36,447 nt of DNA, from IMG/VR virus record IMGVR_UViG_3300021599_000323, positions 1 through 36,447 of that record; one strand, written 5' to 3'. Below are positions 10,548 through 36,447 of the stretch, in pieces (the first letter of the stretch is position 1; each line of letters starts with the position of its first letter). The notes below the pieces were generated by a model, which ran no database searches, was not told the DNA's origin, and worked only from the letters and a program-made list of their open reading frames with translations. Source of the stretch: a virus. The position numbers and the translations under genes are program-made.

Positions 10548-11549
10548 TCAAGCGGTCCGCACGGTGCCGTCGCTCATGACGCGATAGTTCTGCACGTCAA
10601 ACGCACCGCCATTGTGAACGGTGGCCATTGCAAATCCCCAGTTCCACCGATTGATCCGTGCGTAATCGGGCCGCAAGTCGCACAGACAGCCGGTGCTCCA
10701 GCACGCCGTTTCGTGGTGCCACATATCGGACTCGGCATGGTTGCTCGTACGGTGGGAGTGTCCCACTAGCCCACTGGAGCCAGTGCGAAGGAACACGCCA
10801 CGGGCCACATTCACTGGGGCAGCCATGCCGCTTGGCAACTCGTGGCCGTGCAGCACTGGCAACTTGCCAAGCATCACGGGCCGCTTGTCCTCCACCAGCG
10901 TCACGCCGTGCTTGTCCAAGTCCAGCCACGCCCCAAGGCTCATGCGTGGATCGTCGCTTATCTCGGCGGCGTGCTGCCACAGCCAGTGCGTCCACCGCTC
11001 CTCGTGGTTGCCGAGCTTGTAGACGATGGGGATCTCTGGGAACTCATGCCGCACGTATTCAATGAACGCCCGCACGGCGTCGAGCTCGCCCTTGAAGTCC
11101 CGCTGCGTCGGGTCTTTCATGTACCGACTGATGGCATAGAAGTCGGCGATGTCTCCGTTCAAAAGCAACGCCGACAGATTCTGATCCTTGAGAAAGCCAA
11201 CGGCCGCAGCCACGGCGATCTCAGAGTGATACGGCACATGCACGTCACTGATGATGCCAACCGGGCCGAGTACGTCGAGAACGTGCGGAGTCCACGACTC
11301 GGCCATGCTCTTAGGCATCGACCGCTGCTCGCCGGCCTTCCGCTGCTCACGGGGTGCTACGGGCTTGACCCTCTTTCTGCTATGCACACCGTTGACGCCA
11401 AACTGCCGGGCGATCCGCTTTCGTGCCTGGTCTAGCGTGATGGCGTTGTGTGACTCACGCACCAGGCGTCGAGCCAGAGTCCGAGCCGGCGCGTCAGGAT
11501 GCCGCTGGCACAGTCGCTTGGCCATCTCGGTGATTGCATCACCCGCCAT
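10548..11549 (-). CDS. Calcineurin-like metallophosphoesterase
   Basis: This 333-residue protein has every metallophosphoesterase motif: SDVHVPY (D102, H104), NGDIAD (D133), GNHEE (N181, H182), HGH (234-236) and GHSH (H264, H266). They coordinate two metal ions for phosphoester hydrolysis. The first 90 residues are an added basic, helical region with an HTH-like look (TLARRLVRESHNAITLDQAR), which could bind DNA. Start 11549 has a strong GGGAGGTG SD. Phage members of the family act on nucleic-acid ends or nucleotides; the substrate is not evident. It overlaps the metallopeptidase-like gene by 11 nt. Confidence 0.9.
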   Translation of the reverse strand: MAGDAITEMAKRLCQRHPDAPARTLARRLVRESHNAITLDQARKRIARQFGVNGVHSRKRVKPVAPREQRKAGEQRSMPKSMAESWTPHVLDVLGPVGIISDVHVPYHSEIAVAAAVGFLKDQNLSALLLNGDIADFYAISRYMKDPTQRDFKGELDAVRAFIEYVRHEFPEIPIVYKLGNHEERWTHWLWQHAAEISDDPRMSLGAWLDLDKHGVTLVEDKRPVMLGKLPVLHGHELPSGMAAPVNVARGVFLRTGSSGLVGHSHRTSNHAESDMWHHETACWSTGCLCDLRPDYARINRWNWGFAMATVHNGGAFDVQNYRVMSDGTVRTA

Positions 11550-11826
11550 CGCTCACCTCCCTGTAGCCGAGGCTGTAGAGAACCTTGGCAATATCCTTGC
11601 CAGCCTGCTCGGTGTGCTCTTCGCTCGCCGTTGGGTAGAGAGCGTGAAGCAACTCATGCACGATGATGGTGAGCCGATGCCTGCCCCTGAGGCCGTCGTG
11701 AATCAAGATCCGTGGCCGCTTGCTCTTCTGGCTGAACGTGTAGCCATAGGCCTGGCCTTTGAGATCCGTGAACCGGATCAGCCACCGCTCGTCGCCGTTC
11801 AGCGTGAATACGTGATCGTCTGGCAC
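11539..11826 (-). CDS. Small zinc metallopeptidase-like protein (HELLHA)
   Basis: The core motif IIVHELLHALYP is the HExxH zinc site of SprT/Wss1-like and related mini-metallopeptidases. It is followed by TEQAGKDIAKVLYSLGY, a possible third-ligand helix (Glu). The GTG at 11826 has AAGGG at 6-7 nt and gives 95 residues. An ATG farther upstream (11919) would add 31 Arg-rich residues inside the previous gene and has no SD. N-terminal beta strands (WLIRFTDLKGQAYGYTFSQ) precede the helix. Function could be peptidase or a structural zinc protein. Confidence 0.7.
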   Translation of the reverse strand: MPDDHVFTLNGDERWLIRFTDLKGQAYGYTFSQKSKRPRILIHDGLRGRHRLTIIVHELLHALYPTASEEHTEQAGKDIAKVLYSLGYREVSDGG

Positions 11827-11861
11827 GGGCGGCCCTTTCGCTTCTAACCGTAGCGAGGGCG

Positions 11862-12176
11862 TCAACCGATGCCGATCTTGCGGCCAAGTTCGTTCAAGGC
11901 CTCCTGACGCTGCTGGCATCCGCAGTCGCCCCCCACGACAGCCGAAACTCGCTCCTTGGTGATCCCGATGGCAGTAAGCCCTGCGGCGACCAAGTCGCCT
12001 AGGCCCATCTTTGGCGGCTCAGTTCCTGCCTTCTGCTGGCGAGGATAAGCAGGATGGTCAACGTCAACCTCGTACCATCCGTTGCCCAAGTCCTCAAGCA
12101 GGCACGGTTTAATCTCGTCCCACGAATAGCCACGCTCGACGCAGCGTGCCATCACGTCAGCAGCGTGAAGGATCAT
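11862..12176 (-). CDS. Hypothetical phage protein with C-terminal GDCGC motif
   Basis: This 104-residue protein starts at ATG 12176, coupled to the preceding stop (ATGA) with GAGG close upstream. The C-terminal half, GLGDLVAAGLTAIGITKERV, then GGDCGCQQRQEALNELGRKI, is a pattern I associate with small virion- or tail-region proteins of many phages (GLGD…T.aiGI…DCGC..R…LN). The two Cys may bind metal or pair between subunits. The N-terminal part (YSWDEIKPCLLEDLGNGWYE, then VDVDHPAYPR) is unassigned. Confidence 0.6.
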   Translation of the reverse strand: MILHAADVMARCVERGYSWDEIKPCLLEDLGNGWYEVDVDHPAYPRQQKAGTEPPKMGLGDLVAAGLTAIGITKERVSAVVGGDCGCQQRQEALNELGRKIGIG

Positions 12177-24032: not shown

Positions 24033-24203
24033 CTAGCGTGCCGGCCTCTTGCAGAACCGCACTTCAGAAACTGTTGTTTTCACAAACACCACCCCACGAG
24101 CACCGCACTTGGGACAACGCATGTAACGCTGACGCTCATCACCACACGGGCGAGATGAGCGGCACCGCAACTTTTCGCCGCAGGTGCAGCGGGCCTCAGA
24201 CAT
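24033..24203 (-). CDS. Small zinc-ribbon protein (56 aa)
   Basis: A 56-codon frame from ATG 24203 (GAGG at 7 nt) overlaps the end of the protease gene by 8 nt and fills the gap before the capsid gene. It reads M-S-E-A-R-C-T-C-G-E-K-L-R-C, then CGDERQRYMRCPKCGARGVV. Cys pairs at about 6/8 and 30/33, with more at 14 and 20, suggest one or two zinc sites; the R-Y-x-x-C-P-x-C-G core recalls Com and Ogr/Delta-like phage zinc fingers. A DNA- or RNA-binding role is likely, for example translational control of head genes. The family is not firmly assigned. Confidence 0.7.
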   Translation of the reverse strand: MSEARCTCGEKLRCRSSRPCGDERQRYMRCPKCGARGVVFVKTTVSEVRFCKRPAR

Positions 24204-24885
24204 TGCGGAGCCTCAGTGCCCACGCAGCAGCGGCAGCACTAATACCACGGCTCTTGGCAATCCAATCAACTAGAGCCTTGCGGTCTTCGGCACGCTCCTC
24301 GGTAGCAGCGGGCACTTGCGTGGCAAGCCACGCCTCGTAGGACCGCTGGGCCACAGTGACGCTGCTGGCGGGATAGGCCGGCGTCAGGACAACGGAAACG
24401 TCTACAAGCGAACTGACTTCCCGCACTTCTCTGACTGCGCCTTGCTCGTCGCTAGACCACCTGTCGCCCTTGCCCGGCTCAAGGCCGAAGGCAAAGCTGC
24501 TGCCCTTAAGGTCACGACGCCTGACCAGTTCCATCGTGTCACGCCCCACCTGTGTATCCGGCGGAATGACGGTATACCGCAGCCCCTTATCATCGCTGGT
24601 GAGCTCCAGCGTGCCGCTGGCTGACCGGCCGAGAATCAGGTCTGGGTTGTGATTTAGCAACGCCACCACGTCCTGCTTGCCGCGCTGGCGGTTAAGAACT
24701 TTATCGAACGCACCTGGCAGGATTATCTCGCGGAACTGCGATCCACCTTCTCGCAGCGGAAGGCTGAAGCGGTTGTAGACGGCGGCATATCCAGTCAGCA
24801 CCTGCGTGCCGTTGGCGCGAGTCTCAATCGTGAGCTCAGCTTCTGGGCACTCGTCAAAAGCTAGGCAGCGGCGTTCAAGTTCCAT
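24196..24885 (-). CDS. HK97-type prohead protease
   Basis: The 229-residue product shows the U35 prohead protease pattern: TGYAAVYNRFSLPLREGGSQ, FREIILPGAFDKVLN, VALLNHNPDLILGRSASGTL with the catalytic His, GSSFAFGL with the catalytic Ser, and EVSSLVDVSVVLTPAYPASS. ATG 24885 has AGGAG at 7 nt; an upstream ATG would overlap the portal gene more. It cuts the capsid scaffold domain during maturation. The C-terminal tail is helical. Confidence 0.93.
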   Translation of the reverse strand: MELERRCLAFDECPEAELTIETRANGTQVLTGYAAVYNRFSLPLREGGSQFREIILPGAFDKVLNRQRGKQDVVALLNHNPDLILGRSASGTLELTSDDKGLRYTVIPPDTQVGRDTMELVRRRDLKGSSFAFGLEPGKGDRWSSDEQGAVREVREVSSLVDVSVVLTPAYPASSVTVAQRSYEAWLATQVPAATEERAEDRKALVDWIAKSRGISAAAAAWALRLRNV

Positions 24886-26170
24886 CGGTCTGCTCCTGTT
24901 CTTCGGCCTGGTCCTCGGCGTCATCCTCGGGGCTGTCCTCGCTCTCGACGGCTGGCGGCTCGGGCATCGGCTCCGCTGCCGGCGGCTCTTCGCCCACCTT
25001 GTCGAGCGTCGTCATGTTGAGTTGCACAAAGTGCTTGTCACCTTCCGGCCCGATGGGGTTGAGGTTCTCAAGTTCTCGGATCTCGTTGATCGTCATCCAG
25101 CCGTTTTGCAGGGCCGAGACGTAGTAGGCCGAACGGCCAGCGTGATCGCCTCGCAGCATTCCAGAAACGCTGTGCTCCGCGAAATACGTCTCATCATCCA
25201 CGATGAGGTCACGGCTGATGGCAGCCTCCCATCGCTTTAAGTGAGGCATTAGGCAGTACTGCACAAACTCAAGGCTCTGGGTTTCGATATTGTTAAAACT
25301 GCTTCTAGTGAGGTCTTGAATCATGTGCGGAGGCACACGAAACGCCCGGCAGATTTCGATGACTTGATACTGCCGAGTCTCCAAAAACTGGGCGGCCTCA
25401 TTGCTGCCGCTAAGCTCGTGGGCCTTCACGCCGTTGGGCAGTACTGCCGTGCGGTGGGCACGATCTGGGCCACGGTGCATACGCTCCCACTGCTCACGCA
25501 GCCGCTCGGCCGCCTCTATCGGAATCGGGTTGTCGCTCTCCAGCACAATGCCGGGCCTTGCCCCGTTGCCAAAGTACGTTGAGCCGTGTGCCTCCAACGC
25601 TTGGGCTAGACCGATGGCATTCTGAAAAATCTTGTATGTGGGAATCGCCTTGATGCCGTCCTCGGTCGTGAACCGCAGGCAGAAAATCTGCTCCTGGCCG
25701 TAGACCGTCTGCCTGCCATTCGGCTCACGGTATATGTACCGCAGCGTGCCGTTCTCCAGCCGCTCCACTTCCATGCGGCTTGAATGCAGCGGCCACAGTT
25801 CCGACACGGCACCTCGAGCACCGGGCCGGATCTCGGCGTAGCTCGCACCGTAGTGCAGATACATGCCAGTCATCCAATCCCGAAATTCTTGAGCCGTCTG
25901 CCACGGGTTGGGCTGCTGGTGTAGGAGCCGATAGACCGGGTGGTTTGTGGCCTTCTGTTTGCCGCCGTTGGCCATACGCTCGTAGACGTGCAGCGGCAAC
26001 GCCGAGACTGCGTCCGAAATCACCCGGATACAGGCCGTGTAGGCAGAGCAGGCCATCGAGTTGTCGGCGTTGACTCGGATGCCAGACGGCGTGCGAGACG
26101 GCGAAACCTCGGGCCAATCAATGCCCCGGAGATCAATCATCTTGAAGTCGGCGGCGGCGTTTTCGCTCAT
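24875..26170 (-). CDS. Portal protein
   Basis: This 431-residue protein matches HK97-type portals: SACSAYTACIRVISDAVSAL-like start (actual MACSAYTACIRVISDAVSA), LPLHVYERMANGGKQKATNH, PVYRLLHQQPNPWQTAQEFR, then GLAQALEAHGSTYFGNGARP and RQYQVIEICRAFRVPPHMIQ, NNIETQSLEFVQYCLMPHLK. ATG 26170 overlaps the terminase stop (ATGA). The C-terminus is a Glu/Asp-rich tail. It forms the dodecameric vertex through which DNA passes. Confidence 0.95.
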   Translation of the reverse strand: MSENAAADFKMIDLRGIDWPEVSPSRTPSGIRVNADNSMACSAYTACIRVISDAVSALPLHVYERMANGGKQKATNHPVYRLLHQQPNPWQTAQEFRDWMTGMYLHYGASYAEIRPGARGAVSELWPLHSSRMEVERLENGTLRYIYREPNGRQTVYGQEQIFCLRFTTEDGIKAIPTYKIFQNAIGLAQALEAHGSTYFGNGARPGIVLESDNPIPIEAAERLREQWERMHRGPDRAHRTAVLPNGVKAHELSGSNEAAQFLETRQYQVIEICRAFRVPPHMIQDLTRSSFNNIETQSLEFVQYCLMPHLKRWEAAISRDLIVDDETYFAEHSVSGMLRGDHAGRSAYYVSALQNGWMTINEIRELENLNPIGPEGDKHFVQLNMTTLDKVGEEPPAAEPMPEPPAVESEDSPEDDAEDQAEEQEQTDGT

Positions 26171-27726
26171 AGGGTGATGATGTCCCAGGACTGCTCGGGT
26201 GCTGGTGCCGTTGCTGTGTCGTAGAGCCCAAGAGCCATGCACAGGCTCACGATCCCGTCAATCCGCTCGTGGCTCCGCTTCTTGCTTGGCTTGATGTTGT
26301 CGCCGTCCGTTTGAATCGCCACGTTTCCGGCCTGCCACGTCAGCGGCTCGCTGTTGTGTAGCAGCTTGCCGCTAACCACAAGGTTCTCTAAGTGCTTTGC
26401 AGCCGGGCTTAAAGAGCCGTAGTTCTGCCTAAACGTTACGACGTTGCACCCGTCTCCTTGCAGTTGATTCATGAGGTGCGTTGCGTTGTACGGGTCCACC
26501 CCAATGCTGCGTATGCGGTATTTCTCAGAGAGTGCGTTGATGTCTTTGCGGAGCCTTTCGTAGTCCGTGACGTTTCCTTCGGTGAGCGTTACGCCCTGCC
26601 CTTTCCTCGCCCATGTGATGTACGGCACCTTGTCCCGCAGTTCCCGCTGGTGGGCGTTCTCCTCAGGAATCCAGAAGTGCGGCTCGCACCAAAACGTGCC
26701 GTCCTCAAGCGGAAACAACAGCACCAGTGCCGTGGTGTCGAATGTCGTGGCCAGGTCTAGCCCAGCGAAACAATCCCGGCCGGCGAGGCTCACAGGGCAC
26801 TGCCTGCTGCCTTGCGCCCAGTGATCCATCCGAAGCCAGCGGGTGTCCTGCTCTGTCCACTGGTTCAGGTACAGCTGCCGAAACGTGTTTTCATAGGCCG
26901 GCATTTCAACGGCCCTCGCACACTCCGTGCGGAGAAAATCGGCCTTGATGCTCACGCCCAGATTCGGGTTGGCCTTCGCCCAGATGTCTTCGTCCCTCCA
27001 ATCGTCCTCTGGTGCAGCGGCGTAGATGGCTGGCAGGAATGTCTCGTCCTTCACGGCCCCTGTCAGCACCGCCTCGGCGTATTTCCAGATTTCCCAGCAG
27101 ACGCTTTTCCTGTCGTGCCCGGCCGTGGTGATGTAGACCATGAGCGGCTGCCGCCTTGCTCCCATGCTCGTCTGCATTACGTCAGCCAGTTCCCGGTTTG
27201 GCTGGGCGTGCAGTTCGTCAAAGATGACGCCGTGAGCGTTCAGCCCGTGCTTCGTGAACGCCTCGGCCGAGAGTGCCTTGTAGAACGAGTGCGTATCTTC
27301 CCTCACAATGCTGTTTCGGTAGACCTTGAGCCTGGTGCGAAGCGATGGCGACATTTCCACGCACGCCTTCGCCATCTCGAACACCAGCCGTGCCTGCTCA
27401 CGATCCGCACCGCACGAGAAGATTTGGGCACCAGGCTCACCGTCAAAGAGGAGCTTGAGTGCGATGCCTGCACACAGAGTGCTCTTTCCGTTCTTGCGGG
27501 GAATCGCCAGAAACGAAGTGCGGTACTGACGCATGCCGTCCGGCCGCAGCGTCCCGAAGAGCCGGCCAATGTAGCTAGCCTGCCACGGCTCGAGCACGAA
27601 CGGCTTGCCGCCGAGCTCGCCCTGCGTGTGCCGCAGATGCTTGGTAAAAAATGTGACGGCATCAACGCCCGGCTGCCCGTACTCAGGCAAACATGCGCGC
27701 GTCTTCTTCGTCTTCCTTCGGGCCAT
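26167..27726 (-). CDS. Terminase large subunit
   Basis: The 519-residue protein has an N-terminal ATPase with an adapted Walker A (IPRKNGKSTLCAG) and Walker B (GVIFDELHAQPN), the coupling motif MVYITTAGHDRKSVCWE, and a C-terminal RNase H-like nuclease (CFAGLDLATTFDTTALVLLF, later IRSIGVDPYNATHLMNQL and ERIDGIVSLCMALG). This is the Terminase_1/HK97-type order. Start 27726 overlaps the small terminase by 44 nt and has a weak GGTGGA SD. It packages DNA into the prohead. Confidence 0.95.
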   Translation of the reverse strand: MARRKTKKTRACLPEYGQPGVDAVTFFTKHLRHTQGELGGKPFVLEPWQASYIGRLFGTLRPDGMRQYRTSFLAIPRKNGKSTLCAGIALKLLFDGEPGAQIFSCGADREQARLVFEMAKACVEMSPSLRTRLKVYRNSIVREDTHSFYKALSAEAFTKHGLNAHGVIFDELHAQPNRELADVMQTSMGARRQPLMVYITTAGHDRKSVCWEIWKYAEAVLTGAVKDETFLPAIYAAAPEDDWRDEDIWAKANPNLGVSIKADFLRTECARAVEMPAYENTFRQLYLNQWTEQDTRWLRMDHWAQGSRQCPVSLAGRDCFAGLDLATTFDTTALVLLFPLEDGTFWCEPHFWIPEENAHQRELRDKVPYITWARKGQGVTLTEGNVTDYERLRKDINALSEKYRIRSIGVDPYNATHLMNQLQGDGCNVVTFRQNYGSLSPAAKHLENLVVSGKLLHNSEPLTWQAGNVAIQTDGDNIKPSKKRSHERIDGIVSLCMALGLYDTATAPAPEQSWDIITL

Positions 27727-28141
27727 TGTCCACCGCCGTGACTCGTGCCAAGGCCGAAGCCGTCAAGCCGAACTCTGCGGCAAACTTCAGCATCTGGTTT
27801 CGGGCGTCACGCTTGCGGTTCCACGCCGGGTGATTTGTCACCTTACCCTTATCGTCCATCAGCGTGGTTCCATTCGCCTTGAGCTCTGAGTCGGCCTGCA
27901 CCATGTCGGCGAATGAGTCGCAGTACGCCGCCAGCGTCTGCTGGTGCCGTGGGCTCATTACCTTTGACGCCTCAAGCATCGGCACGATCCGCTGCCACTC
28001 AGCGGAAGCAACTTCGCCGAGCCATGCCGGTGCCGGCGGCGTGCCAACTTCTGCATCAATGCCGGTCTTGTGTGGTCCCCTAACACGCGAGCCACGCATG
28101 CTAAGGATCGCCTTAGGAGTCGGCTTGCGTCCCTTACCCAT
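27683..28141 (-). CDS. Terminase small subunit, P27 family
   Basis: The 152-residue product opens MGKGRKPTPKAILSMRGSRV and continues with PAWLGEVASAEWQRIVPMLE, QQTLAAYCDSFADMVQADSE and TNHPAWNRKRDARNQMLKFA, EFGLTASALARV. This is the full P27-type small terminase order. ATG 28141 has GAGGG at about 8 nt. It recognises phage DNA for packaging; with P27-type terminases cos packaging is frequent but cannot be shown here. Confidence 0.9.
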   Translation of the reverse strand: MGKGRKPTPKAILSMRGSRVRGPHKTGIDAEVGTPPAPAWLGEVASAEWQRIVPMLEASKVMSPRHQQTLAAYCDSFADMVQADSELKANGTTLMDDKGKVTNHPAWNRKRDARNQMLKFAAEFGLTASALARVTAVDNGPKEDEEDARMFA

Positions 28142-28189
28142 CGTGGCGGCCCTCACAAAGTCCCAATTTCGGCCCTGCGCTCGTTTGGC

Positions 28190-28552
28190 TTAGACAGCGG
28201 GTTTTCGTCCGATGAAGTTGCCGTTCGCGGACCCACCCTCCCCGGCCCTGCGTTCAGTGTTCGTCTTTCGTGCGTGGCACCGGATGCACAGCGTCCGCAG
28301 GTTGCCGAGCTCGTCGGCCCCGCCTTTGGACTTCGGCACGATGTGGTCAACCTGTGCCTCTCGCTTGTCTGCACACACACGCCCGCAGTCCTGGCATTGC
28401 CATGCGTCACGCACTAGGGCTGCCTGCCTCAGTCTCTGCCACGAGCGTGAGCAATAGCCACGGGCTGCCGCGTTGGGCCTGGTGCTCTCGTCTCGCTGGG
28501 GGCGTGACGCACGCAGACGCAGCGGCCTGTGGCATGGGATACGCTGCGGCAT
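28190..28552 (-). CDS. HNH endonuclease next to the terminase
   Basis: This 120-residue protein has a canonical HNH motif: CQDCGRVCADKREAQVDHIV, PKSKGGADELGNLRTLCIRC, HARKTNTERR. It carries two Cys pairs for zinc and the catalytic DH, N and H. The N-terminus is basic. HNH genes placed beside terminase are known to support DNA cleavage in cos packaging. The start at 28552 is TAATG-coupled to the previous gene. Confidence 0.92.
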   Translation of the reverse strand: MPQRIPCHRPLRLRASRPQRDESTRPNAAARGYCSRSWQRLRQAALVRDAWQCQDCGRVCADKREAQVDHIVPKSKGGADELGNLRTLCIRCHARKTNTERRAGEGGSANGNFIGRKPAV

Positions 28553-28908
28553 TAGCTCTTCAGCATCACCACGCCAACCGTGCCAGTGCTGTTCGTGGTG
28601 GCCGAGACGATCTTCAGGTATTCGACCCCAAACACTTCATCGGGCAGGGCATACGCTCGCCCGTCCGTGCTCGAGGCCGACAGGGTGAGATCAGCCACGC
28701 TGCCATCGGCCTTGTACAGGCGGCGGAACGTACCAGCGGGCGTGGTGCCTGCCCACATCTGGAGCGTGCTGGCGTTGGTGCTCATGGTGCCAAACGACAC
28801 AACAGCACCAGCCACGTCACGCATGTCGAGCGTGGTGGCAGATGCGGTGGCCGTGTGCAATGTGATGTCAATGTCTCGGTTCTTGCGGCTGATGATGTTG
28901 TCGGCCAT
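28552..28908 (-). CDS. Hypothetical beta-rich virion-like protein
   Basis: The 118-residue product (ISRKNRDIDITLHTATASAT, TLDMRDVAGAVVSFGTMSTN, YALPDEVFGVEYLKIVSATT, GTVGVVMLKS) is mostly beta strand and Thr/Ser/Val-rich. It begins at ATG 28908 with AGGAGAG. It somewhat recalls the paralogue pair at 20253-21052 in size and DVAGAVVS against DASGAVVS, and could be another decoration protein. That is only a weak similarity. Confidence 0.6.
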   Translation of the reverse strand: MADNIISRKNRDIDITLHTATASATTLDMRDVAGAVVSFGTMSTNASTLQMWAGTTPAGTFRRLYKADGSVADLTLSASSTDGRAYALPDEVFGVEYLKIVSATTNSTGTVGVVMLKS

Positions 28909-28947
28909 GAGTCTCTCCTGTGCGGTCTAGGGTATGGGCTGGGGTGG

Positions 28948-29238
28948 TTACTCTTGCAGTGACTGCTGCACCGCATCTTGGTACTCGGCCTCGGTGATCT
29001 CTGCTGCTGCACCGCTGCCAATCATGTAGCCAAGCATCTCCTCGGCAGCAGGGTACGCACAGAACTCGTCATTGACTGCCAAGACGATGCGTCCTGCTGC
29101 GTCCCGTGGAGCGACTGCGGCGGGGTCAATGCACGTCTGCGTTTTCGTCTCGGCGTTGGGGTGGCCCCATGCAGCGTCAAGGGCAAGCCTTGCCTGCTCA
29201 TACACCTCATCGCCAGCATCGCAGCGGAAGTACCTCAT
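28948..29238 (-). CDS. Hypothetical small acidic protein
   Basis: This 96-residue protein starts at ATG 29238, coupled to the stop of the LamG-like gene (ATGA). It begins MRYFRCDAGDEVYEQARLAL and ends EITEAEYQDAVQQSLQE, an acidic helical tail. The ITEAEYQ type of ending is common in tail-fibre chaperones and small accessory proteins encoded behind fibre genes, so a partner role for the gene at 29235-29996 is possible. There is no firm family. Confidence 0.6.
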   Translation of the reverse strand: MRYFRCDAGDEVYEQARLALDAAWGHPNAETKTQTCIDPAAVAPRDAAGRIVLAVNDEFCAYPAAEEMLGYMIGSGAAAEITEAEYQDAVQQSLQE

Positions 29239-29996
29239 GCGACGGTCACGCCCCATTTCTTGCCAACGCCACGCTCAATGGTGGTGATCTGTGAAGCGGA
29301 CAAGGCTGATGCATAGACGACGCACTCGCTCATGTACATGGCGTTCAGGCTTGCAGTGTCGCATTTTCCAATCTGCAGTTTCGCCGTGGTGGTGGCGTAA
29401 TTGCCGCTGGCATTTGTCCTGCTTCCAACCTCAACGCCATTGCGTCTAACAACCATGGTGGCACCGATTCGGTACACCGTCATTATGTGCGGAGTGGTCC
29501 ACCCAGTATCACTTTGGCTTGCAATGCCAAGCCTTCCTCCACTGGCGTTCACGCTGTCAAAATACAACGTTGATCCGCCAAAGTGGCTTGCGAAAAACAC
29601 TCGCCCATTTGCTTGAGCGTCAGATCCAAAAACTATGGTTCCGCTATTTGCTACGGTCGGCATATAGCAAGCCATCACAAGCACCATCGTCGGACTTGTT
29701 GTTGGCGTCAGCCAGTAGTCTGCAATCGTTGCTGACGAAGTAATGCTGTCGGTGGTGTCGAAATAGAGTGTCGGCTTGTTGTTAAATCCCGTGGCCTGGT
29801 AGGTCGGCTGATTGTTGGCTGTGCTCTGCGTGGCGTGGTATCCGTTCCCGCTTCTGTCATTGATCTGCGAAACGGTGCTGCCGTTCAGCGTGAGCGACGA
29901 GGTGTTGGCGGCATCCAGCCAGAGCTTCAGCCCGCCGATGCTCTTCGGGTTGAATCCCGTGGCCCGTGGCCTTAGCAGTCGTGGACTCATCGGCAT
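29235..29996 (-). CDS. LamG/concanavalin-like fold protein, adsorption candidate
   Basis: The 253-residue product has the LamG/concanavalin-like order: FNPKSIGGLKLWLDAANTSS, INDRSGNGYHATQSTANNQP, KPTLYFDTTDSI, VYRIGATMVVRRNGVEVGSR and MYMSECVVYASALSASQITT. Such domains bind glycans and are frequent in phage tail fibres and in capsid-attached proteins. ATG 29996 has AGGAG at 9 nt. It would help attach to cell-surface or slime carbohydrate. It is not linked to a clear tail-fibre gene, so it may also be a virion decoration. Confidence 0.8.
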   Translation of the reverse strand: MPMSPRLLRPRATGFNPKSIGGLKLWLDAANTSSLTLNGSTVSQINDRSGNGYHATQSTANNQPTYQATGFNNKPTLYFDTTDSITSSATIADYWLTPTTSPTMVLVMACYMPTVANSGTIVFGSDAQANGRVFFASHFGGSTLYFDSVNASGGRLGIASQSDTGWTTPHIMTVYRIGATMVVRRNGVEVGSRTNASGNYATTTAKLQIGKCDTASLNAMYMSECVVYASALSASQITTIERGVGKKWGVTVA

Positions 29997-29999
29997 GGC

Positions 30000-30245
30000 T
30001 TAGTTCTCCTGCGGCATGTCGCCGGCCCGTGGCTGCAGAGCGTAGAGCAATCGTGTCTGCTCGCTCACGGCCTTACTGATCTCACGCTGCGTCTCGCTCA
30101 GGCTCTTCACGAACGCCCTGTGCTCTTCAACAAGAGGCAGCAAAACATCAGCGCGGAGCACCCAGCCGCAAGCAATGGCAACCAAAGTGGGAAATCCCCA
30201 CCGCTCGATGATTCCATACAGGGTGTCTTTCGCAGCGTCAGTCAT
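30000..30245 (-). CDS. Single-pass membrane protein, holin-like candidate
   Basis: The 81-residue protein starts at ATG 30245. One hydrophobic segment (GFPTLVAIACGWVLRADVLL, about 16-35) precedes an amphipathic coiled coil (FVKSLSETQREISKAVSEQT). This size and shape (short N-terminus, one span, helical cytoplasmic tail) recalls BhlA/YvrJ-type small holin-like proteins. It lies in a run of membrane proteins near the papain-like protease. The lysis role is inference. Confidence 0.6.
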   Translation of the reverse strand: MTDAAKDTLYGIIERWGFPTLVAIACGWVLRADVLLPLVEEHRAFVKSLSETQREISKAVSEQTRLLYALQPRAGDMPQEN

Positions 30246-30582
30246 TGCGGGCCTCACTGGACAGAAGCCGCATTTCGCTGCGGTTCTCGCTCTTCTCCAT
30301 CCACCACCGTACAAGAATCTTGACGATCTCTTGCACCAGGGCTGAGAAGATGAGCAGCGTCAAGAAGCCCATCTGCATGTCGGCTCGCACTGAGCGTTCC
30401 ACCGTGCGGGTGTAGTACTTGGCCACAACAGCGGCCTCGGCATCGTCGCACTGCTCGAGCACCGGGATGGGCCAGCCGGCAACGGCACGCCGCACGACAC
30501 GGTTAGCAATGCGTCGGCCGGCAACACGCTGGAGCGTTGGCAGCTGGTCCCAGACGTGCGATTCCAAGTCGGTGAGCGTCAT
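30238..30582 (-). CDS. Membrane protein with C-terminal span
   Basis: The 114-residue product starts at ATG 30582 (ATGA overlap with the lipoprotein gene). A helical soluble part (PTLQRVAGRRIANRVVRRAV) is followed by a hydrophobic segment (MGFLTLLIFSALVQEIVKIL, about 71-90) and a basic tail (WWMEKSENRSEMRL). It could be a holin partner or an anchor. No named family. Confidence 0.6.
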   Translation of the reverse strand: MTLTDLESHVWDQLPTLQRVAGRRIANRVVRRAVAGWPIPVLEQCDDAEAAVVAKYYTRTVERSVRADMQMGFLTLLIFSALVQEIVKILVRWWMEKSENRSEMRLLSSEARND

Positions 30583-30815
30583 CGCTTGCCGGTTCCTTTG
30601 CAGACGGGGCAAGTGATTTTGATCTTCCCGTCACCGATGAAGCCGTCCACGCAATTGTCGCACTTGTCGCTTGCCGGCGTGGGTGCGATCTCGTGCCGCA
30701 ACTGCGTCACCATGCGGGCTGTCTCGCATGCCATGTCGGCGGATACGCCCTGGTCATCGGGCAGCGTGGCCACGCAGCCAATCAGCACGACAGCGAGGCA
30801 GACAAGAAATCTCAC
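30579..30815 (-). CDS. Small lipoprotein with DnaJ-like CxxC zinc motif
   Basis: This 78-residue protein has a lipoprotein signal (MRFLVCLAVVLIGCVATLPD, lipobox V-L-I-G-C at about 10-14) and a C-terminal DnaJ-type zinc pair: CDNCVDGFIGDGKIKITCPV, then CKGTGKR. A CxxC-x-G-x-G pair is usually half of a DnaJ Cys-rich repeat set. Here a single zinc site would be held at the membrane outer face. GTG 30815 overlaps the protease stop (GTGA) with GAGGTG upstream. Gene order after a protease suggests a Rz1/spanin-like position, but the sequence is not Pro-rich like known spanins. Confidence 0.7.
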   Translation of the reverse strand: MRFLVCLAVVLIGCVATLPDDQGVSADMACETARMVTQLRHEIAPTPASDKCDNCVDGFIGDGKIKITCPVCKGTGKR

Positions 30816-31735
30816 AGCACACCTCGGAGCCAGTTATCTGGGAGCGTGGACGGCTTGAACCCGCTGTAGCCGGCGTAGACGTAGGAATCACGGCCTGAGA
30901 GCATGCGGTCGCACACTTCGGCGTCGATCCAAAAAGAACAGTTGCGGACGGCAGGCGGAATGTCGTGCGGGTAATGCTTGCCAACCGTGTTGGATTCGCC
31001 CCACGAGTTGGCACACAGCAGGCCTGGACGCTTGCCGCCACGAAGGCCAATCAGGCACATTGCGTGCCACCAAACGCCACCGGCCTTGCAAAAGCCGTCA
31101 TCGTCTCGGCTCATGCTGAAGCCCTGGCCGCTGCACACCACCACCGGGTAGCCGTTACTGATCGCTGCGGCAGCCTCACTGAAGTTGGTGGCCAGCGTCG
31201 TTTCGCTGCACCGCCGCTCCTTGGCGAACGGCTCGAGCACGTTTGGCACGCCATTGCGTCCCCACTCACGGTCCCGCTGCTGCTTGCCTTCCTCGCGGAT
31301 CACGGTGCCGCCGTAGTCCACGCCGTAATGCAGCGAGCCAAAATCTCGGATGGCCTTGGCGGCATGGAATCCCGTGGACCCATCGCCGCCTTGGTTGCTT
31401 TTCTGCCCGCGAGCCTCTACGCGTGAAAATCCATACAAACTGGCTTCGATTGTGCGGCCCTTCCATGCCTCGGGCTCTTTCCGCCAGTGAATGTCGCAGG
31501 CGGCGAGCACGTCCACCGCAAGGCTCGCGCCCCAGCCGACGCACGAGCCCACGTTGCCCTGAGAGCCACGCTTCCACTTGCTGTCACACGCCAGCAGAGC
31601 CGGGTACAGCATCACATCTTGGTCTGCGGCCTTTAGGTCTGGGCCGGCAGTCGCAATCGTGGGGTGCGGCAACGTCGCAACGAACGCTTCAGCACCTTCT
31701 GGATCGGGCAGGTAGCCCATGCCATGGTCGGCCAT
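30812..31735 (-). CDS. Papain-like cysteine protease
   Basis: The 307-residue protein has the papain (C1) catalytic set. Gln59 (oxyanion) and Cys65 lie in GSQGNVGSCVGWG, His224 in KAGGVWWHAMCLIG, and Asn243 in CANSWGES, with the expected order and spacing. No signal peptide or propeptide is clear. ATG 31735 has AAGGAG at about 6 nt. Phages rarely encode papain-like enzymes. It sits among holin-like membrane proteins where an endolysin is expected. Possible roles are cleavage of peptide crosslinks in the envelope or processing of virion proteins. The protease call is strong; the biological role is inferred. Confidence 0.88.
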   Translation of the reverse strand: MADHGMGYLPDPEGAEAFVATLPHPTIATAGPDLKAADQDVMLYPALLACDSKWKRGSQGNVGSCVGWGASLAVDVLAACDIHWRKEPEAWKGRTIEASLYGFSRVEARGQKSNQGGDGSTGFHAAKAIRDFGSLHYGVDYGGTVIREEGKQQRDREWGRNGVPNVLEPFAKERRCSETTLATNFSEAAAAISNGYPVVVCSGQGFSMSRDDDGFCKAGGVWWHAMCLIGLRGGKRPGLLCANSWGESNTVGKHYPHDIPPAVRNCSFWIDAEVCDRMLSGRDSYVYAGYSGFKPSTLPDNWLRGVL

Positions 31736-31738
31736 GCG

Positions 31739-32347
31739 TCACTCCTTGCCGACGCCGGCCCACGCTACGGCCTTCGCAAATGCGGTGTATCGGCTTCGCA
31801 CGTCAGCAGTGACTGCAACCACGTCCGTGCCAACAGCCTGCCCGTAGGCGGCCTCCACGGCATTCCTGAGCGGCTCATTGCTTCCTGGCTGATGCTGCCC
31901 AATCCGACGCCACGCGATGTCGAGTGCCAGCGTGGTGAACATCCGCAGCGAGCGAGTATCCGTGAACGCCACTTCCGTGGTGACGGCGTCGCCGGCCACA
32001 ACCACGGCGGCCTTGCTCCAGACCTGAGCCCATAGCATCCTGTCGCCCATTGGGACAGACTTAAGAGCCTCGGCCACCGGCTTCACCAGCTGCTGCATCT
32101 CCACGCTCGGAGTCTCCACGTTCACGCTGACGGCAGGAGCCGCCGGAAGCCTTGGCACAGGCAGCTTGCCCCAAGCCGCAGCCACTAGGAGGAGTGCGGC
32201 GGCGATTCGGCCGAGGGTGGCACGCTCGGCGTAGCAGGCCTGGGCGGCCGTAGAGAGCCAGCCAGCGATCCTGTCCCGGTACGGGGCGGCCAGCAGAGCA
32301 ACCGCCGCCACCACGGCTGCGAGGCGTATGACGCTTTCATCGCTCAA
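31739..32347 (-). CDS. Membrane protein with two spans
   Basis: The TTG at 32347 (GGAGG at 7 nt, overlapping TGA of the previous gene) gives 202 residues. Two hydrophobic segments (VIRLAAVVAAVALLAAPY near 6-23 and IAAALLLVAAAWG near 46-58) precede a soluble alpha-helical domain (TPSVEMQQLVKPVAEALKSV, MFTTLALDIAWRRIG). An upstream ATG has no SD. It may be a holin-like or membrane-tethered virion protein. No family is recognised. Confidence 0.6.
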   Translation of the reverse strand: MSDESVIRLAAVVAAVALLAAPYRDRIAGWLSTAAQACYAERATLGRIAAALLLVAAAWGKLPVPRLPAAPAVSVNVETPSVEMQQLVKPVAEALKSVPMGDRMLWAQVWSKAAVVVAGDAVTTEVAFTDTRSLRMFTTLALDIAWRRIGQHQPGSNEPLRNAVEAAYGQAVGTDVVAVTADVRSRYTAFAKAVAWAGVGKE

Positions 32348-32646
32348 CGGGCGGCCTCCACCTGCAGCAGGCACCACCGAACCAGGGCTTCGCCTTCCTT
32401 GGTCTTCAGCAAGTCGCCCAGCATCCGCACCAGCTGGTCATCCACCTGGGCGTCAGTCTTGCTGGCCACCCACTCGGCGGCATCGCTCACCACGACGGCC
32501 TTAGCGTACGGGTCGGCCGTCTGCACGAAACGCTGGGCGTAGCCGACGAGCGGAGCCCACGTTTGCAGAAGTCGGATCTGGTCCCAGATCGACAGATTGC
32601 CGCCGTACTTCTCAAGTTCGGCCGGCGTGGCTTCGTAGTTTGGCAA
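32344..32646 (-). CDS. Hypothetical alpha-helical protein
   Basis: This 100-residue protein starts at a TTG (32646) behind a strong GAGGAGG SD at 7 nt. Sequence: NYEATPAELEKYGGNLSIWD, QIRLLQTWAPLVGYAQRFVQ, ending EALVRWCLLQVEAAR. It is helical and slightly amphipathic. No known motif. It is coupled to the two-span membrane protein that follows, so the two may work together. Confidence 0.6.
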   Translation of the reverse strand: MPNYEATPAELEKYGGNLSIWDQIRLLQTWAPLVGYAQRFVQTADPYAKAVVVSDAAEWVASKTDAQVDDQLVRMLGDLLKTKEGEALVRWCLLQVEAAR

Positions 32647-32921: not shown

Positions 32922-33292
32922 CGGTTGGCCTCCCACAAGTCAGCGTCGCCGTCGTAGGCGGTGTGCTCTCTCGTCTCGCTGTCGAGAGGGATTCGCTTGA
33001 GCGACACCAGCTGCGTCTTGGTTACTCGCCGGTCCTCTCGCACGTCATCACTCCACGTCGCCTGTATCTGAATGCAGGCCTGGCGGATCTCGGTGGTTGT
33101 CGGATCTCGCTGCCGAACCGGCTTCGCACGCAGTTTGCGGTCGTGCCGGCGTGGCAACTCCCACACGACGGCCAGGCGGATGACTTGGTCACGGGAAATA
33201 GTCCACCGCTCGCACAACGCCCGCATAGGCATGTGCGTCATCCAATCGGCACGGAATGCCGTCAGGCTGATGGTTGCGGTGACGCCTCGCAC
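32918..33292 (-). CDS. HTH protein of the phage regulator type
   Basis: The 124-residue product has an HTH-like segment (MRALCERWTISRDQVIRLAV, VWELPRRHDRKLR) with the same proline-basic tail as the tandem-HTH gene at 90-521. A second block, IRQACIQIQATWSDDVREDR, is a pattern seen in many phage regulatory or terminase-adjacent HTH proteins. The start codon is uncertain: GTG 33292 has no clear SD and overlaps the glycosyltransferase stop. It probably regulates, or binds DNA in, the late region. Confidence 0.65.
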   Translation of the reverse strand: MRGVTATISLTAFRADWMTHMPMRALCERWTISRDQVIRLAVVWELPRRHDRKLRAKPVRQRDPTTTEIRQACIQIQATWSDDVREDRRVTKTQLVSLKRIPLDSETREHTAYDGDADLWEANR

Positions 33293-34149
33293 GACTCAAT
33301 CCAGTTCATAAGCATTCGCTGCGACGGGTTTAGGTACAGGTGCTGTCCTGTCGCCTTGGCAATGCCCTGATGAAACGGCACATGCTCGCAGTCTGACACG
33401 CCGTCATACGTTCCCTTCAGATACGCATCGGTTCGGTAGATGGCCATGCCACCGAACGCTGACGAGACAAGCACGGGCGGCGAGCCGACAGGCGGCAGCC
33501 ACGAGAAGCCAAAACCTCCGTAGCCGTTCTGGTACGTGTCGAAGTAGCAGTTAGCCTGCCCAATGCCACGAAGTGCCCACAAGTCGTAGTGGCACCACTG
33601 CGGGCCGCCACCGAAGTCGTACTGAAACAACGACGTGCTGGCCATGCCGTAGGCACCCTGCAAATCCACGAGCCAGCCGAGGCCGTTCAGGAATCCTTCG
33701 TCGTTCCAGCCGCCCCACGCATCGAAGTCCACGACGCAGATGTAGTCGGCGTCCTTGGCACACGCTCGCACCCACCGCTGGCATGCGTCTCGGTATTCAG
33801 CCAAGGCAATTGTGCGACGGCCGGCGAACTCCGCGCCGTACTGGTCACGTCCAAGGATCTGATAGTGAAACGTCGCCTGCGGCTTCTCACGGCAGTAGTC
33901 GTGCAGCACCTCGAGCGTCTGATCTTCGCAGTCGTTGCTTTCAATGTGCAGCGACCACGCCCCGGCGATCTCTTGGAGTTTCTCCAGCCGGCCAAGGTTG
34001 CTGGCGAGGCGCACGGCACAGTTACGGGCGAGGCCCACGAAGGCCACGTTGGCATTTCGCAGACGCTCGGTGCCTTCGGCCACACGCTCACGGTAGGCAT
34101 CAATGAACGGCTCATGCGGCAGCCAGAGCCGAGACGGCATGTCAGGCAT
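33262..34149 (-). CDS. Glycosyltransferase-like protein
   Basis: This 295-residue protein has a GT-A-like core: an N-terminal strand VAFVGLARNCAVRLASNLG, then GAWSLHIESNDCEDQTLEVL, and an Asp-x-Asp in YICVVDFDAWGGWNDEGFL, followed by acceptor-region aromatic runs (WCHYDLWALRG, GYGGFGFSWLPPVG). It is the first of three consecutive glycosyltransferase-like genes. ATG 34149 has AGGTG upstream. Probable roles are modification of phage or host surface. Donor sugar unknown. Confidence 0.7.
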   Translation of the reverse strand: MPDMPSRLWLPHEPFIDAYRERVAEGTERLRNANVAFVGLARNCAVRLASNLGRLEKLQEIAGAWSLHIESNDCEDQTLEVLHDYCREKPQATFHYQILGRDQYGAEFAGRRTIALAEYRDACQRWVRACAKDADYICVVDFDAWGGWNDEGFLNGLGWLVDLQGAYGMASTSLFQYDFGGGPQWCHYDLWALRGIGQANCYFDTYQNGYGGFGFSWLPPVGSPPVLVSSAFGGMAIYRTDAYLKGTYDGVSDCEHVPFHQGIAKATGQHLYLNPSQRMLMNWIESCEASPQPSA

Positions 34150-34792
34150 AAAACACCTGCCCATCGTTTACTTTTGCAACCTTAAGCTCATGCCCATGAT
34201 CGGTTGGCCACACCGTTGGATTTTCTGGCATTTGCTGATTGGCAGCATCGTGATACCTACGACACGTCTCAAGACGTTCATCTCGCGTCCTGACGAGCCA
34301 CAGGTGATGCAATAGCGCAGCACCAACGACAACGTCTAACTTCGGCGGTCCTTCATGGACAACTCTTCTGACAGCATGACGTTTCAAGGATAAACGCATT
34401 TGTATGTCTGGCCACCAATGCTCATCAGTCAGCATAAGCGATTCGTTTATCCACAGATGAGCGCGTGGAAACCCGATTGCTTCGTAGTTCTTCCAATCCC
34501 CTGCAAGCAGATAGCCGGCCATTGCAAGCGATACTGTTTCGTCATCATCTAGCCTGAGTACATATTCTCCTGAGCAATGCGACACTGCTTCTTCAAGCAC
34601 TGTCTCGACTACCGGGCAGCTTGACGCATCAAGTCGCACTTTTTTCGCCTTTGGAACGTTTACGTCACATCTGTCACAGCCAATCACCAACTCCGCTCGC
34701 AGTAAGTTTGCAAGCAGTGAAAGATGACTTAGGAACCTTGGCGTGTGGGGTTCTCCGCGTGTCACGCATAACACAGACAGCCTTTCAGACAT
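34142..34792 (-). CDS. GT2-like glycosyltransferase, A+T-rich
   Basis: The 216-residue product opens LSVLCVTRGEPHTPRFLSHL and has CSGEYVLRLDDDETVSLAMA, a typical hydrophobic strand followed by Asp-rich nucleotide-sugar site of family-2 glycosyltransferases. A His-rich acceptor side follows (MRLSLKRHAVRRVVHEGPPK). ATG 34792 overlaps the previous stop by 8 nt. Base composition is A+T-richer than its neighbours, a sign of separate acquisition within a sugar-transfer cluster. Confidence 0.75.
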   Translation of the reverse strand: MSERLSVLCVTRGEPHTPRFLSHLSLLANLLRAELVIGCDRCDVNVPKAKKVRLDASSCPVVETVLEEAVSHCSGEYVLRLDDDETVSLAMAGYLLAGDWKNYEAIGFPRAHLWINESLMLTDEHWWPDIQMRLSLKRHAVRRVVHEGPPKLDVVVGAALLHHLWLVRTRDERLETCRRYHDAANQQMPENPTVWPTDHGHELKVAKVNDGQVFYA

Positions 34793-35555
34793 CCACGCCT
34801 CGCTTTCGGCAGATAGCGGCTGCCACGTCCTGCGGCACGCCTGCACGTTTGAGGAACGCCCAGCACTCGACCATGTAACGACCTGAATCGGTGCTGTTAC
34901 GTTGTGTTACGCCGTAGCCGGAATCGTCCTCGGTGAAGATGGCACCAGGCGCAGGCACATAGACGCAGCCACCCATGGCGGCCACGGCCGAATAGCCGAC
35001 AGCGTCAGCCCACGGCCCCATCCGCCAGTACTCCAACTGGCACAGCCACAGCAGCCAGTTCCACCGGATGGCTGAGCCAATGCCCGTTTCGCACGGCAAG
35101 GCGTCGCTGCTGATGTGCTGGCATGCCTCGGCCTTCGTCATCGCCGTCACTTGGTGAAACGGCATTGGCACAGCACCGTGAGGATCTTGGCCCGGCTTCC
35201 TGCAGTAGTACGAGTGGAAGATCACGGCGGCGTTTGGCCACCGCATCGTGCTCTGCACAACGCCAGGGTAGAGCTCGTCATCGGCTGAAAGCCCGATGAT
35301 GTGGGAACCGCCGAAGAACGTGAACTGCTCAGCGGCAGCCTGCTCCCAGCATGGTGCCTTCACGGCGTTGCGATGCAGCCAGACGCTGTCGTACGTCATC
35401 GCCGCAGCGTCGGCCACTGCCACGCTGTCATCAGTACTGGCGTCGTCGATGACGGCCACCTCCACCGGCATCTGGCTGGCCGCTGAGTAGATCGCCGCCG
35501 GCAACGTCGCAGCGTGGTTCCGATTTGGTATGTAGACGCTCACGCCCAACTTCAC
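34785..35555 (-). CDS. Family 2 glycosyltransferase
   Basis: This 256-residue protein shows the GT2 pattern: VSVYIPNRNHAATLPAAIYS, VEVAVIDDASTDDSVAVADA, and SHIIGLSADDELYPGVVQST (the D-D metal site). GTG 35555 overlaps the RusA stop (GTGA). It would transfer a sugar from a nucleotide donor, perhaps to cell-envelope glycans (seroconversion) or to phage components. The acceptor cannot be inferred. Confidence 0.85.
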   Translation of the reverse strand: MKLGVSVYIPNRNHAATLPAAIYSAASQMPVEVAVIDDASTDDSVAVADAAAMTYDSVWLHRNAVKAPCWEQAAAEQFTFFGGSHIIGLSADDELYPGVVQSTMRWPNAAVIFHSYYCRKPGQDPHGAVPMPFHQVTAMTKAEACQHISSDALPCETGIGSAIRWNWLLWLCQLEYWRMGPWADAVGYSAVAAMGGCVYVPAPGAIFTEDDSGYGVTQRNSTDSGRYMVECWAFLKRAGVPQDVAAAICRKRGVDV

Positions 35556-35953
35556 GAGATCCGCACGGTGGTCCGTGCCTCCGGGCCGTAGCTCTTCTCC
35601 ACCACCAGGCGGCCAACTAGCGAGTCATCGCCCATCACGTCCTGCAGTGCGTCGAGCACCGCCTTGGCGATGTTGTCCACGTCGGGCCTCGGCAACTTTG
35701 GTGCGTCGGGCTTCACGCCGGACTTCTTCGTGTGGGACTTTGGACGTTCAAAGACGGCGTCAATCACCACGTTCAGCGGCTCGCCGGTTGCCGTGAGCCC
35801 AGCACCTCGAGCAGCTGCTGCCAGCGACTGCCGGTAGGCATGCACGGGGTGATCCTTGGGCACGTACGCACGGGCGAACCCGCCCGCAGTCGAGACTCTC
35901 GGCCTCGGCTGTGGGACGGGCTGCCCGGCGACGCTAAATGACACGGATGACAT
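35552..35953 (-). CDS. rusA: RusA-type Holliday junction resolvase
   Basis: The 133-residue product has the RusA layout: VSFSVAGQPVPQPRPRVSTA, AYVPKDHPVHAYRQSLAAAA, then PDVDNIAKAVLDALQDVMGD and LVGRLVVEKSYGPEARTTV. The catalytic acidic residues are visible at about D91, D93 and D109/D110. It cuts Holliday junctions from recombination or replication, a natural partner of RecT. ATG 35953 overlaps the previous stop (TGATG). Confidence 0.93.
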   Translation of the reverse strand: MSSVSFSVAGQPVPQPRPRVSTAGGFARAYVPKDHPVHAYRQSLAAAARGAGLTATGEPLNVVIDAVFERPKSHTKKSGVKPDAPKLPRPDVDNIAKAVLDALQDVMGDDSLVGRLVVEKSYGPEARTTVRIS

Positions 35954-36258
35954 CAGCGATAGCGGATGACGGCGAACCAGCGGCGAGCCACTGGCGAGTA
36001 GGCCACGCCTTCCTCGACGATGACACGGGTGCCGAAGAAGCAGCAGTTGCGACGTGCTGCCTCTGGAGTTGAGCCGGTGCCAATCCCCTCGTACTGGCCG
36101 CAGCTGCTGTGAACCAGCGAGCCACGGCGGGCGATCACGACGGCGTGGTCCTGGGCACTGATGACGCTGCCACGACGGGCCACCACGGTGGTGTCGGCGT
36201 TGGCCGTGACGGCACAGGCCACGAACAAACAAACGAGCAAGGCAACCAAGAAACGCAT
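35953..36258 (-). CDS. Small secreted Cys-rich protein
   Basis: The 101-residue product has a classic signal peptide (MRFLVALLVCLFVACAVTAN, cleavage near ANA-D) and a mature part with ARRGSVISAQDHAVVIARRG, SLVHSSCGQYEGIGTGSTPE and AARRNCCFFGTR. The HSSC…EGIG…TPEAA…NCCFFG pattern resembles small secreted proteins I recall from planctomycete genomes; that is memory, not a search. ATG 36258 has CAGGAGG at 6 nt. It is the first gene of the long late unit. It might act at the cell surface, for example in superinfection exclusion. Confidence 0.7.
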   Translation of the reverse strand: MRFLVALLVCLFVACAVTANADTTVVARRGSVISAQDHAVVIARRGSLVHSSCGQYEGIGTGSTPEAARRNCCFFGTRVIVEEGVAYSPVARRWFAVIRYR

Positions 36259-36328
36259 AGCAGTCCTCCTGTGACTGGGAACAAATCCACAGCCAGCAGG
36301 ATGGCAAGCGTGTCAAGCAAGCCGGGCA

Positions 36329-36406
36329 GGCGTACTATGCGGCACCAGTAACGTCCGCCGGTTGCGTCACGCTGCGGCAAGATGCCGAATCTCCGGCGTA
36401 CTATGC
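36329..36406. repeat. Pair of direct repeats upstream of the late unit
   Basis: GGCGTACTATGC occurs at 36329-36340 and 36395-36406, followed by GGCACC and AGCACG, so the repeat spans about 16 bp, 66 bp apart. Between them lies a TTGC...GCAA inverted pair (36362-36380). A 10-bp palindrome TTCTGCAGAA follows (36428-36437). The 189 nt from 36259 to the window end hold no gene that I can support. This looks like a control region of the late operon, but no clear -35/-10 pair on the minus strand was found. Confidence 0.5.
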
Positions 36407-36447
36407 AGCACGGCGGGTGTTATGGGGTTCTGCAGAATTACTGGTTC

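Follow-up and report, generated by a model that had tools for sequence, protein, structure and literature searches.

We identified a previously undescribed family of papain-like cysteine proteases, here designated PAP, which is distributed over hundreds of viral contigs and some planctomycete genomes. One member is encoded in the window, i.e., the whole 36,447-nt stretch of viral DNA that was analyzed. With moderate confidence, we propose that PAP is an exported papain-type endopeptidase that cuts envelope proteins and serves as the catalytic part of a lysis module in planctomycete phages. The original prediction, which was made from the window sequence and placed a papain-like protease in the position of a lysis gene, was partly supported. 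The features discussed below are as follows.

24196-24924, minus strand: head maturation protease, serine-type (phrog_80, 1.8e-47); a gene separate from PAP
26167-27726, minus strand: terminase large subunit, downstream of the PAP block
27683-28156, minus strand: terminase small subunit, downstream of the PAP block
29235-29996, minus strand: LamG-like virion structural protein adjoining the block (phrog_10356, 5e-27)
30000-30245, minus strand: 81-aa protein with one predicted transmembrane (TM) segment (residues ~21-39); toward the C terminus, a long polar stretch is helix-like
30238-30612, minus strand: protein of 124 aa, for which a single TM segment is predicted (residues ~83-101)
30579-30815, minus strand: 78-aa lipoprotein with lipobox VLIGC and two CxxC motifs (phrog_3931, 2e-4)
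30812-31735, minus strand: PAP, papain-like cysteine protease, 307 aa, ATG start, no signal peptide
31739-32377, minus strand: membrane-anchored protein of at most 212 aa, hydrophobic at ~15-33 and ~54-72, followed by a ~130-aa domain
32344-32646, minus strand: soluble protein of 100 aa, encoded by the first block gene (weak match to phrog_402/22224, function unknown)

The PAP family and its fold

The papain relationship was not seen when single PAP sequences were searched against Pfam, PHROG and PDB. An AF2 model based on close relatives only (pLDDT 42) was discarded, and a model based on an alignment of 70 diverse members had a pLDDT of 90.4 and a pTM of 0.91. Its best match in PDB was xylellain (3ois), a papain-like cysteine protease of Xylella fastidiosa (VIA Z 22.1, rmsd 3.0 over 238 residues; Foldseek 5.9e-9), followed by the proforms of cathepsin B, Der p 1, cathepsin L and papain; a VIA Z of at least 8 was obtained for 343 PDB chains. 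When the 70-member profile was compared with PDB, papain/cathepsin-type chains occupied all of the best 60 matches listed (best E 0.0023). The putative catalytic residues Q59, C65, H224 and N243 occur in papain order. The first three are invariant among the 70 members, whose identity falls to about 22%, and N243 is kept in at least 90% of the alignment; in three planctomycete copies (L252, L253 and L254) the catalytic Asn is replaced by Gln, with AQSWG or LQSWG in place of NSWG. Given the model, the structure and profile matches and the conservation of these residues, PAP has a papain fold with a conserved catalytic set, and peptidase activity is predicted. The papain-type enzyme with a full Gln-Cys-His-Asn set that had been proposed from the window sequence was thus borne out.

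PAP shares the fold, the Gln-Cys-His-Asn order and the NSWG motif with the Peptidase C1 family (PF00112), which includes papain and cathepsins B, L and H, but window PAP has no PF00112 match and some members have Gln for Asn. Only 4 of the 70 members matched this profile, weakly (best 4.5e-4), and an intein-bearing member approached the threshold (18.9 bits; cut-off 20.7). Xylellain has the same fold but is only 15% identical to PAP; it is not a phage gene, and no membrane-gene block is known for it. Papain folds are also present in uncultured Caudovirales proteins in BFVD (A0A6J5RCA6, A0A6J5TCZ4 and A0A6J5MXS7; E 1e-8 to 3e-7), whose likeness to PAP is one of structure, whereas identity is about 15% and architectures differ. 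No Pfam match to NlpC/P60 was found for PAP, nor was this family present among the best 50 structures listed. PeiW and PeiP offer a functional analogy only, as cysteine peptidases that act as lysins on an unusual wall. They are recognized by a C71 catalytic domain and pseudomurein-binding repeats, their hosts are archaeal, and their peptidase family is different from that of PAP.

One scan of IMG/VR yielded 63 PAP relatives; profile scans yielded 177 and 395. The window gene differs from one relative (L073) by 105 synonymous and 30 non-synonymous codons, and a similar synonymous excess was seen against three others (L067, L074 and L076). The number of relatives and the mainly synonymous differences argue that this open reading frame is not a chance one, and the codon pattern indicates purifying selection. 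No relative was detected among INPHARED phages by tblastn with three different family members as queries, or in genome contigs scanned with the PAP motifs of the window lineage; the planctomycete copies were reached via TerL and PAP profile searches. In addition, five otherwise unrelated members (L030, L036, L041, L048 and L059) have in common a divergent block in the C-terminal half (FCSGQGFS..CLFGGGVR..NSWG..RMC), which suggests recombination within the PAP gene.

PAP is an unusual host gene for an intein. In three members (L369, L370 and L372), a 359-aa intein is located directly before the catalytic Cys, between exteins QEIGD and CVSFG, and a fourth (L373) agrees with them in insertion point and ORF length. 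One such gene is given here.

L369:8711-10711: intein-interrupted PAP gene, in-frame, LAGLIDADG type

Pfam matches of the intein-bearing ORF were LAGLIDADG_3 (8.9e-9), Hom_end_hint (4.3e-8) and intein-splicing (1.1e-5, sub-threshold). All four carriers are viral contigs, some of them large phages. Inteins usually persist at indispensable active sites, and an intein at the catalytic Cys of PAP fits an essential role for this residue.

The gene block and possible export of PAP

PAP is the third of six genes on the minus strand, in the order 32344-32646, 31739-32377, PAP, lipoprotein, 30238-30612 and 30000-30245, with ends overlapping or nearly touching; for example, the GTG start of the lipoprotein gene overlaps the PAP stop by 4 nt. 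Across 89 loci of the window lineage, the lipoprotein gene was always present (89/89), the two small TM genes were each found in 88, the 31739-32377 gene in 85 and the 32344-32646 gene in 82, and, where found, these partners had constant order and spacing. For the adjacent terminase, portal and capsid genes, identity falls as low as about 28-35%. A constant block beside variable head genes implies that the block is inherited as a unit.

Three membrane proteins and a zinc lipoprotein had been predicted as neighbors. The former, and the lipoprotein itself, were supported by TM segments called by hydropathy and by the lipobox; "zinc" comes from the CxxC pattern only, the two motifs being possible zinc knuckles. 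The 30000-30245 protein is the best holin candidate in the block, and the 30238-30612 protein is a possible holin-like partner; neither matched a known holin family in Pfam or PHROG. Like holin-endolysin-spanin cassettes, the block is a compact operon in which a hydrolase is encoded together with small TM proteins and a lipoprotein, but here the hydrolase is a papain-type proteinase and no known holin or spanin family was matched.

In a sister lineage (L260-L339), 72 of 78 PAP copies have an N-terminal hydrophobic anchor, which argues for action outside the cytoplasm. No anchor or signal was found in any of the 89 PAPs of the window lineage, so export would need a partner, a role for which either small TM protein is a candidate. 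We also considered whether a PAP anchor and a holin partner strictly replace each other, but this could not be demonstrated, since the anchored lineage has small TM genes of its own. Probable homologues in the 31739-32377 position are lipoproteins or signal-anchored proteins in sister lineages. In some lineages only, an exported thioredoxin-like protein is encoded downstream of PAP (Thioredoxin_7, 7.5e-8, in L250; Thioredoxin_2, 1e-8, in L380). In L252, the homologue of the CxxC lipoprotein is longer and has a CGPC motif; it was read by eye as thioredoxin-like and had no Pfam match. Other proteases were observed near PAP as well: an exported trypsin-like protein ~4 kb upstream (L390:14485-15279 in record G400; Trypsin, 1.2e-15) and a subtilase that adjoins PAP (L361:12070-13164; Peptidase_S8, 7.4e-59).

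Probable planctomycete hosts and the search for a muralytic gene

Full-length PAP (profile, E<1e-40) was detected in 13 of 392 Planctomycetota genomes and in none of 297 Acidobacteriota genomes, where the best match (2e-6) was partial. A terminase gene lies just downstream of PAP in one planctomycete copy (L249), and terminase-like genes lie near PAP in two others (L250 and L255). In addition, a contig of the Phycisphaerales MAG UBA4658 (L256) contains five block genes together with dnaN and rusA, suggesting that the host of the window phage probably belongs to the Phycisphaerales group, with the caution that applies to MAG binning. The phage thus probably infects planctomycetes, in line with the unusual host envelope that had been anticipated. 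A planctomycete chromosome (L257:8951-11881) carries a similar cassette, consisting of a small TM protein, a TM protein, a lipoprotein, PAP and a Cys-rich lipoprotein-like ORF. Phage structural genes were not seen near this cassette, which may be a prophage remnant or a domesticated module.

The make-up of planctomycete walls is disputed. One study reported protein walls with cysteine-rich YTV proteins and found that most Planctomycetales have lost peptidoglycan genes (PMC8567305), whereas lysozyme-sensitive peptidoglycan sacculi have been found in planctomycetes (PMC4432640). P. limnophila can dispense with most of its peptidoglycan-synthesis genes (PMC10632474). The Phycisphaerales are an early-branching group in which, following PMC8567305, peptidoglycan genes may have been kept.

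The absence of a muralytic domain from the window, another part of the original prediction, held. Most of the sizeable ORFs of the window were compared with Pfam and/or PHROGs, and none was muralytic. A muralytic gene elsewhere, set beforehand as a check, was looked for in the window and 35 relatives and was not found: all wall-hydrolase profiles were run on the relatives, and all but Phage_lysozyme also on the whole window record. Phage_lysozyme (PF00959), Amidase_2 (PF01510), SLT (PF01464) and CHAP had no match in these 35-36 records (CHAP, PF05257, 0/36, window included), and neither M23 (PF01551) nor M15_4 (PF13539) exceeded the Pfam cut-off in the 35 relatives and the window, with sub-threshold matches to M23 in G421 and to M15_4 in G405. 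Seven relatives of 36-51 kb were pooled into a pan-gene set, in which Pfam scans, with 25 of 40 families listed in one and all 25 families in the other, revealed no wall hydrolase. Sub-threshold Pfam matches such as HypA and Headcase were judged to be chance. An "IrrE/M78-like" match at 11539-11919 was rejected as a lysin; the match is below the cut-off, and the protein, although it contains a HELLH motif, lacks an export signal. A lysin of novel fold elsewhere in the genome is possible.

The window (ends 1-521 and 36258-36447) has no terminal repeat. In relatives, the gene at its left end (dnaN) and the gene at its right end (at 35953) are neighbors. When the two ends are joined, the window is collinear with relatives on either side of the junction, with a spacing of 639 nt compared to 712 nt in L065. 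Because of this adjacency and collinearity, the window appears to be complete and circularly permuted, and the idea of a fragment whose lysin lies outside is weakened. It was also observed that this 36-kb phage encodes a DNA polymerase III sliding clamp (beta subunit; 521-1714) of its own, which is conserved and adjoins rusA in relatives.

Proposed role of PAP and alternatives

The mechanism that we infer, including late timing, export route, envelope substrate and lysis itself, would be as follows. PAP would be made late with its operon partners. The single-TM protein encoded at 30000-30245 or that at 30238-30612 would release PAP across the inner membrane, and in sister lineages PAP would use its own N-terminal anchor. 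Periplasmic PAP would then cut load-bearing envelope proteins, either wall proteins or ties between the outer membrane and the wall, and the cell would open. The CxxC lipoprotein and the 31739-32377 protein might place PAP at the outer membrane or wall; alternatively, they might keep its catalytic Cys and the substrate reduced, and in some sister lineages an exported thioredoxin-like protein occupies that position. Several observations speak against a lysis protease: PAP has no wall-binding domain, window PAP has no signal, the small TM proteins did not match a known holin family, and thioredoxin-like neighbors are confined to some lineages. Planctomycete peptidoglycan sacculi, and the peptidoglycan genes that the probable Phycisphaerales host may keep, also count against it.

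The sacculus is the substrate in the best-surviving alternative, an improbable one in our view, in which PAP is an endolysin that hydrolyzes peptide cross-links. PAP occupies the lysis slot, other wall hydrolases were not found and planctomycete sacculi exist (PMC4432640). Some papain-fold phage proteins in BFVD are annotated as "Peptidoglycan binding-like" (A0A6J5MXS7) or "N acetylmuramidase" (A0A8S5PQA2), and the phage pseudomurein endoisopeptidases PeiW/PeiP, cited in PMC10318531, set a precedent for cleavage of wall peptides by cysteine peptidases. However, the best structures listed for PAP are proteinases, not NlpC/P60 or CHAP, PAP has neither a CHAP match nor a wall-binding domain, and it occurs phylum-wide, yet peptidoglycan-synthesis genes are mostly dispensable in P. 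limnophila (PMC10632474). The peptide-crosslink endopeptidase that had been suggested for PAP is possible but was not supported, the nearest structures of PAP being xylellain, cathepsins and papain. Proteinases as nearest structures, together with protein-rich planctomycete envelopes, make envelope proteolysis at least as likely as cross-link cutting, and we consider cutting of envelope proteins the more probable of the two.

A virion-associated or entry protease, which would cut a surface layer on infection or process virion proteins, appears slightly more doubtful. The block adjoins structural genes, namely those for the LamG virion protein and terminase, which makes a virion role possible, and in L361 PAP is located beside probable baseplate/tail genes and the subtilase. 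However, the N-terminal anchor in 72 of 78 sister homologues is difficult to reconcile with a place in a siphovirus particle and makes this role less likely, the membrane and lipoprotein partners are constant, and head maturation has its own protease. PAP as a prohead protease was rejected, as it lies outside the head module and the phrog_80 gene at 24196-24924 fills that role. Least probable is an envelope-remodelling or superinfection-exclusion module active during infection or lysogeny, not lysis, which would accommodate PAP in chromosomal prophages, the L257 cassette, near which phage structural genes were not seen, and the glycosyltransferase genes just upstream of the window block, but leaves the missing lysin in apparently complete genomes unexplained and does not agree with placement of the block with late genes.

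If PAP is an exported lysis protease, it may have a more general meaning. Literature searches found no description of planctomycete phage lysis, so that phage exit in this phylum is apparently undescribed in the literature found, and there is a long-standing dispute over the load-bearing layer of planctomycete walls. The conservation in a phage family of one proteinase, with no recognizable muralytic enzyme, points at a protein target. The wall question thereby becomes testable: the layer dissolved by PAP would be the layer that holds the cell together. A broader version, which we regard as speculative and rather unlikely, is that planctomycete phages, from 25-kb prophages to those of >200 kb, exit by a papain-type protease and not by a peptidoglycan hydrolase, some lineages adding exported thioredoxin, so that a protein-based, cystine-rich envelope layer is reduced and cut. 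PAP might also be used to open planctomycete cells and might serve as a marker for planctomycete viruses.

Upstream of the block, three consecutive glycosyltransferase-like genes (33262-35555) are partly replaced in relatives; one has a clear Glycos_transf_2 match, one a weak match, and one was assigned by position. Downstream, the stretch that separates the 30000-30245 gene from the HNH gene (28190-29996 in the window) ranges from ~0.8 to 8.5 kb across relatives and encodes LamG-like virion proteins, and is likely a host-range hot spot.
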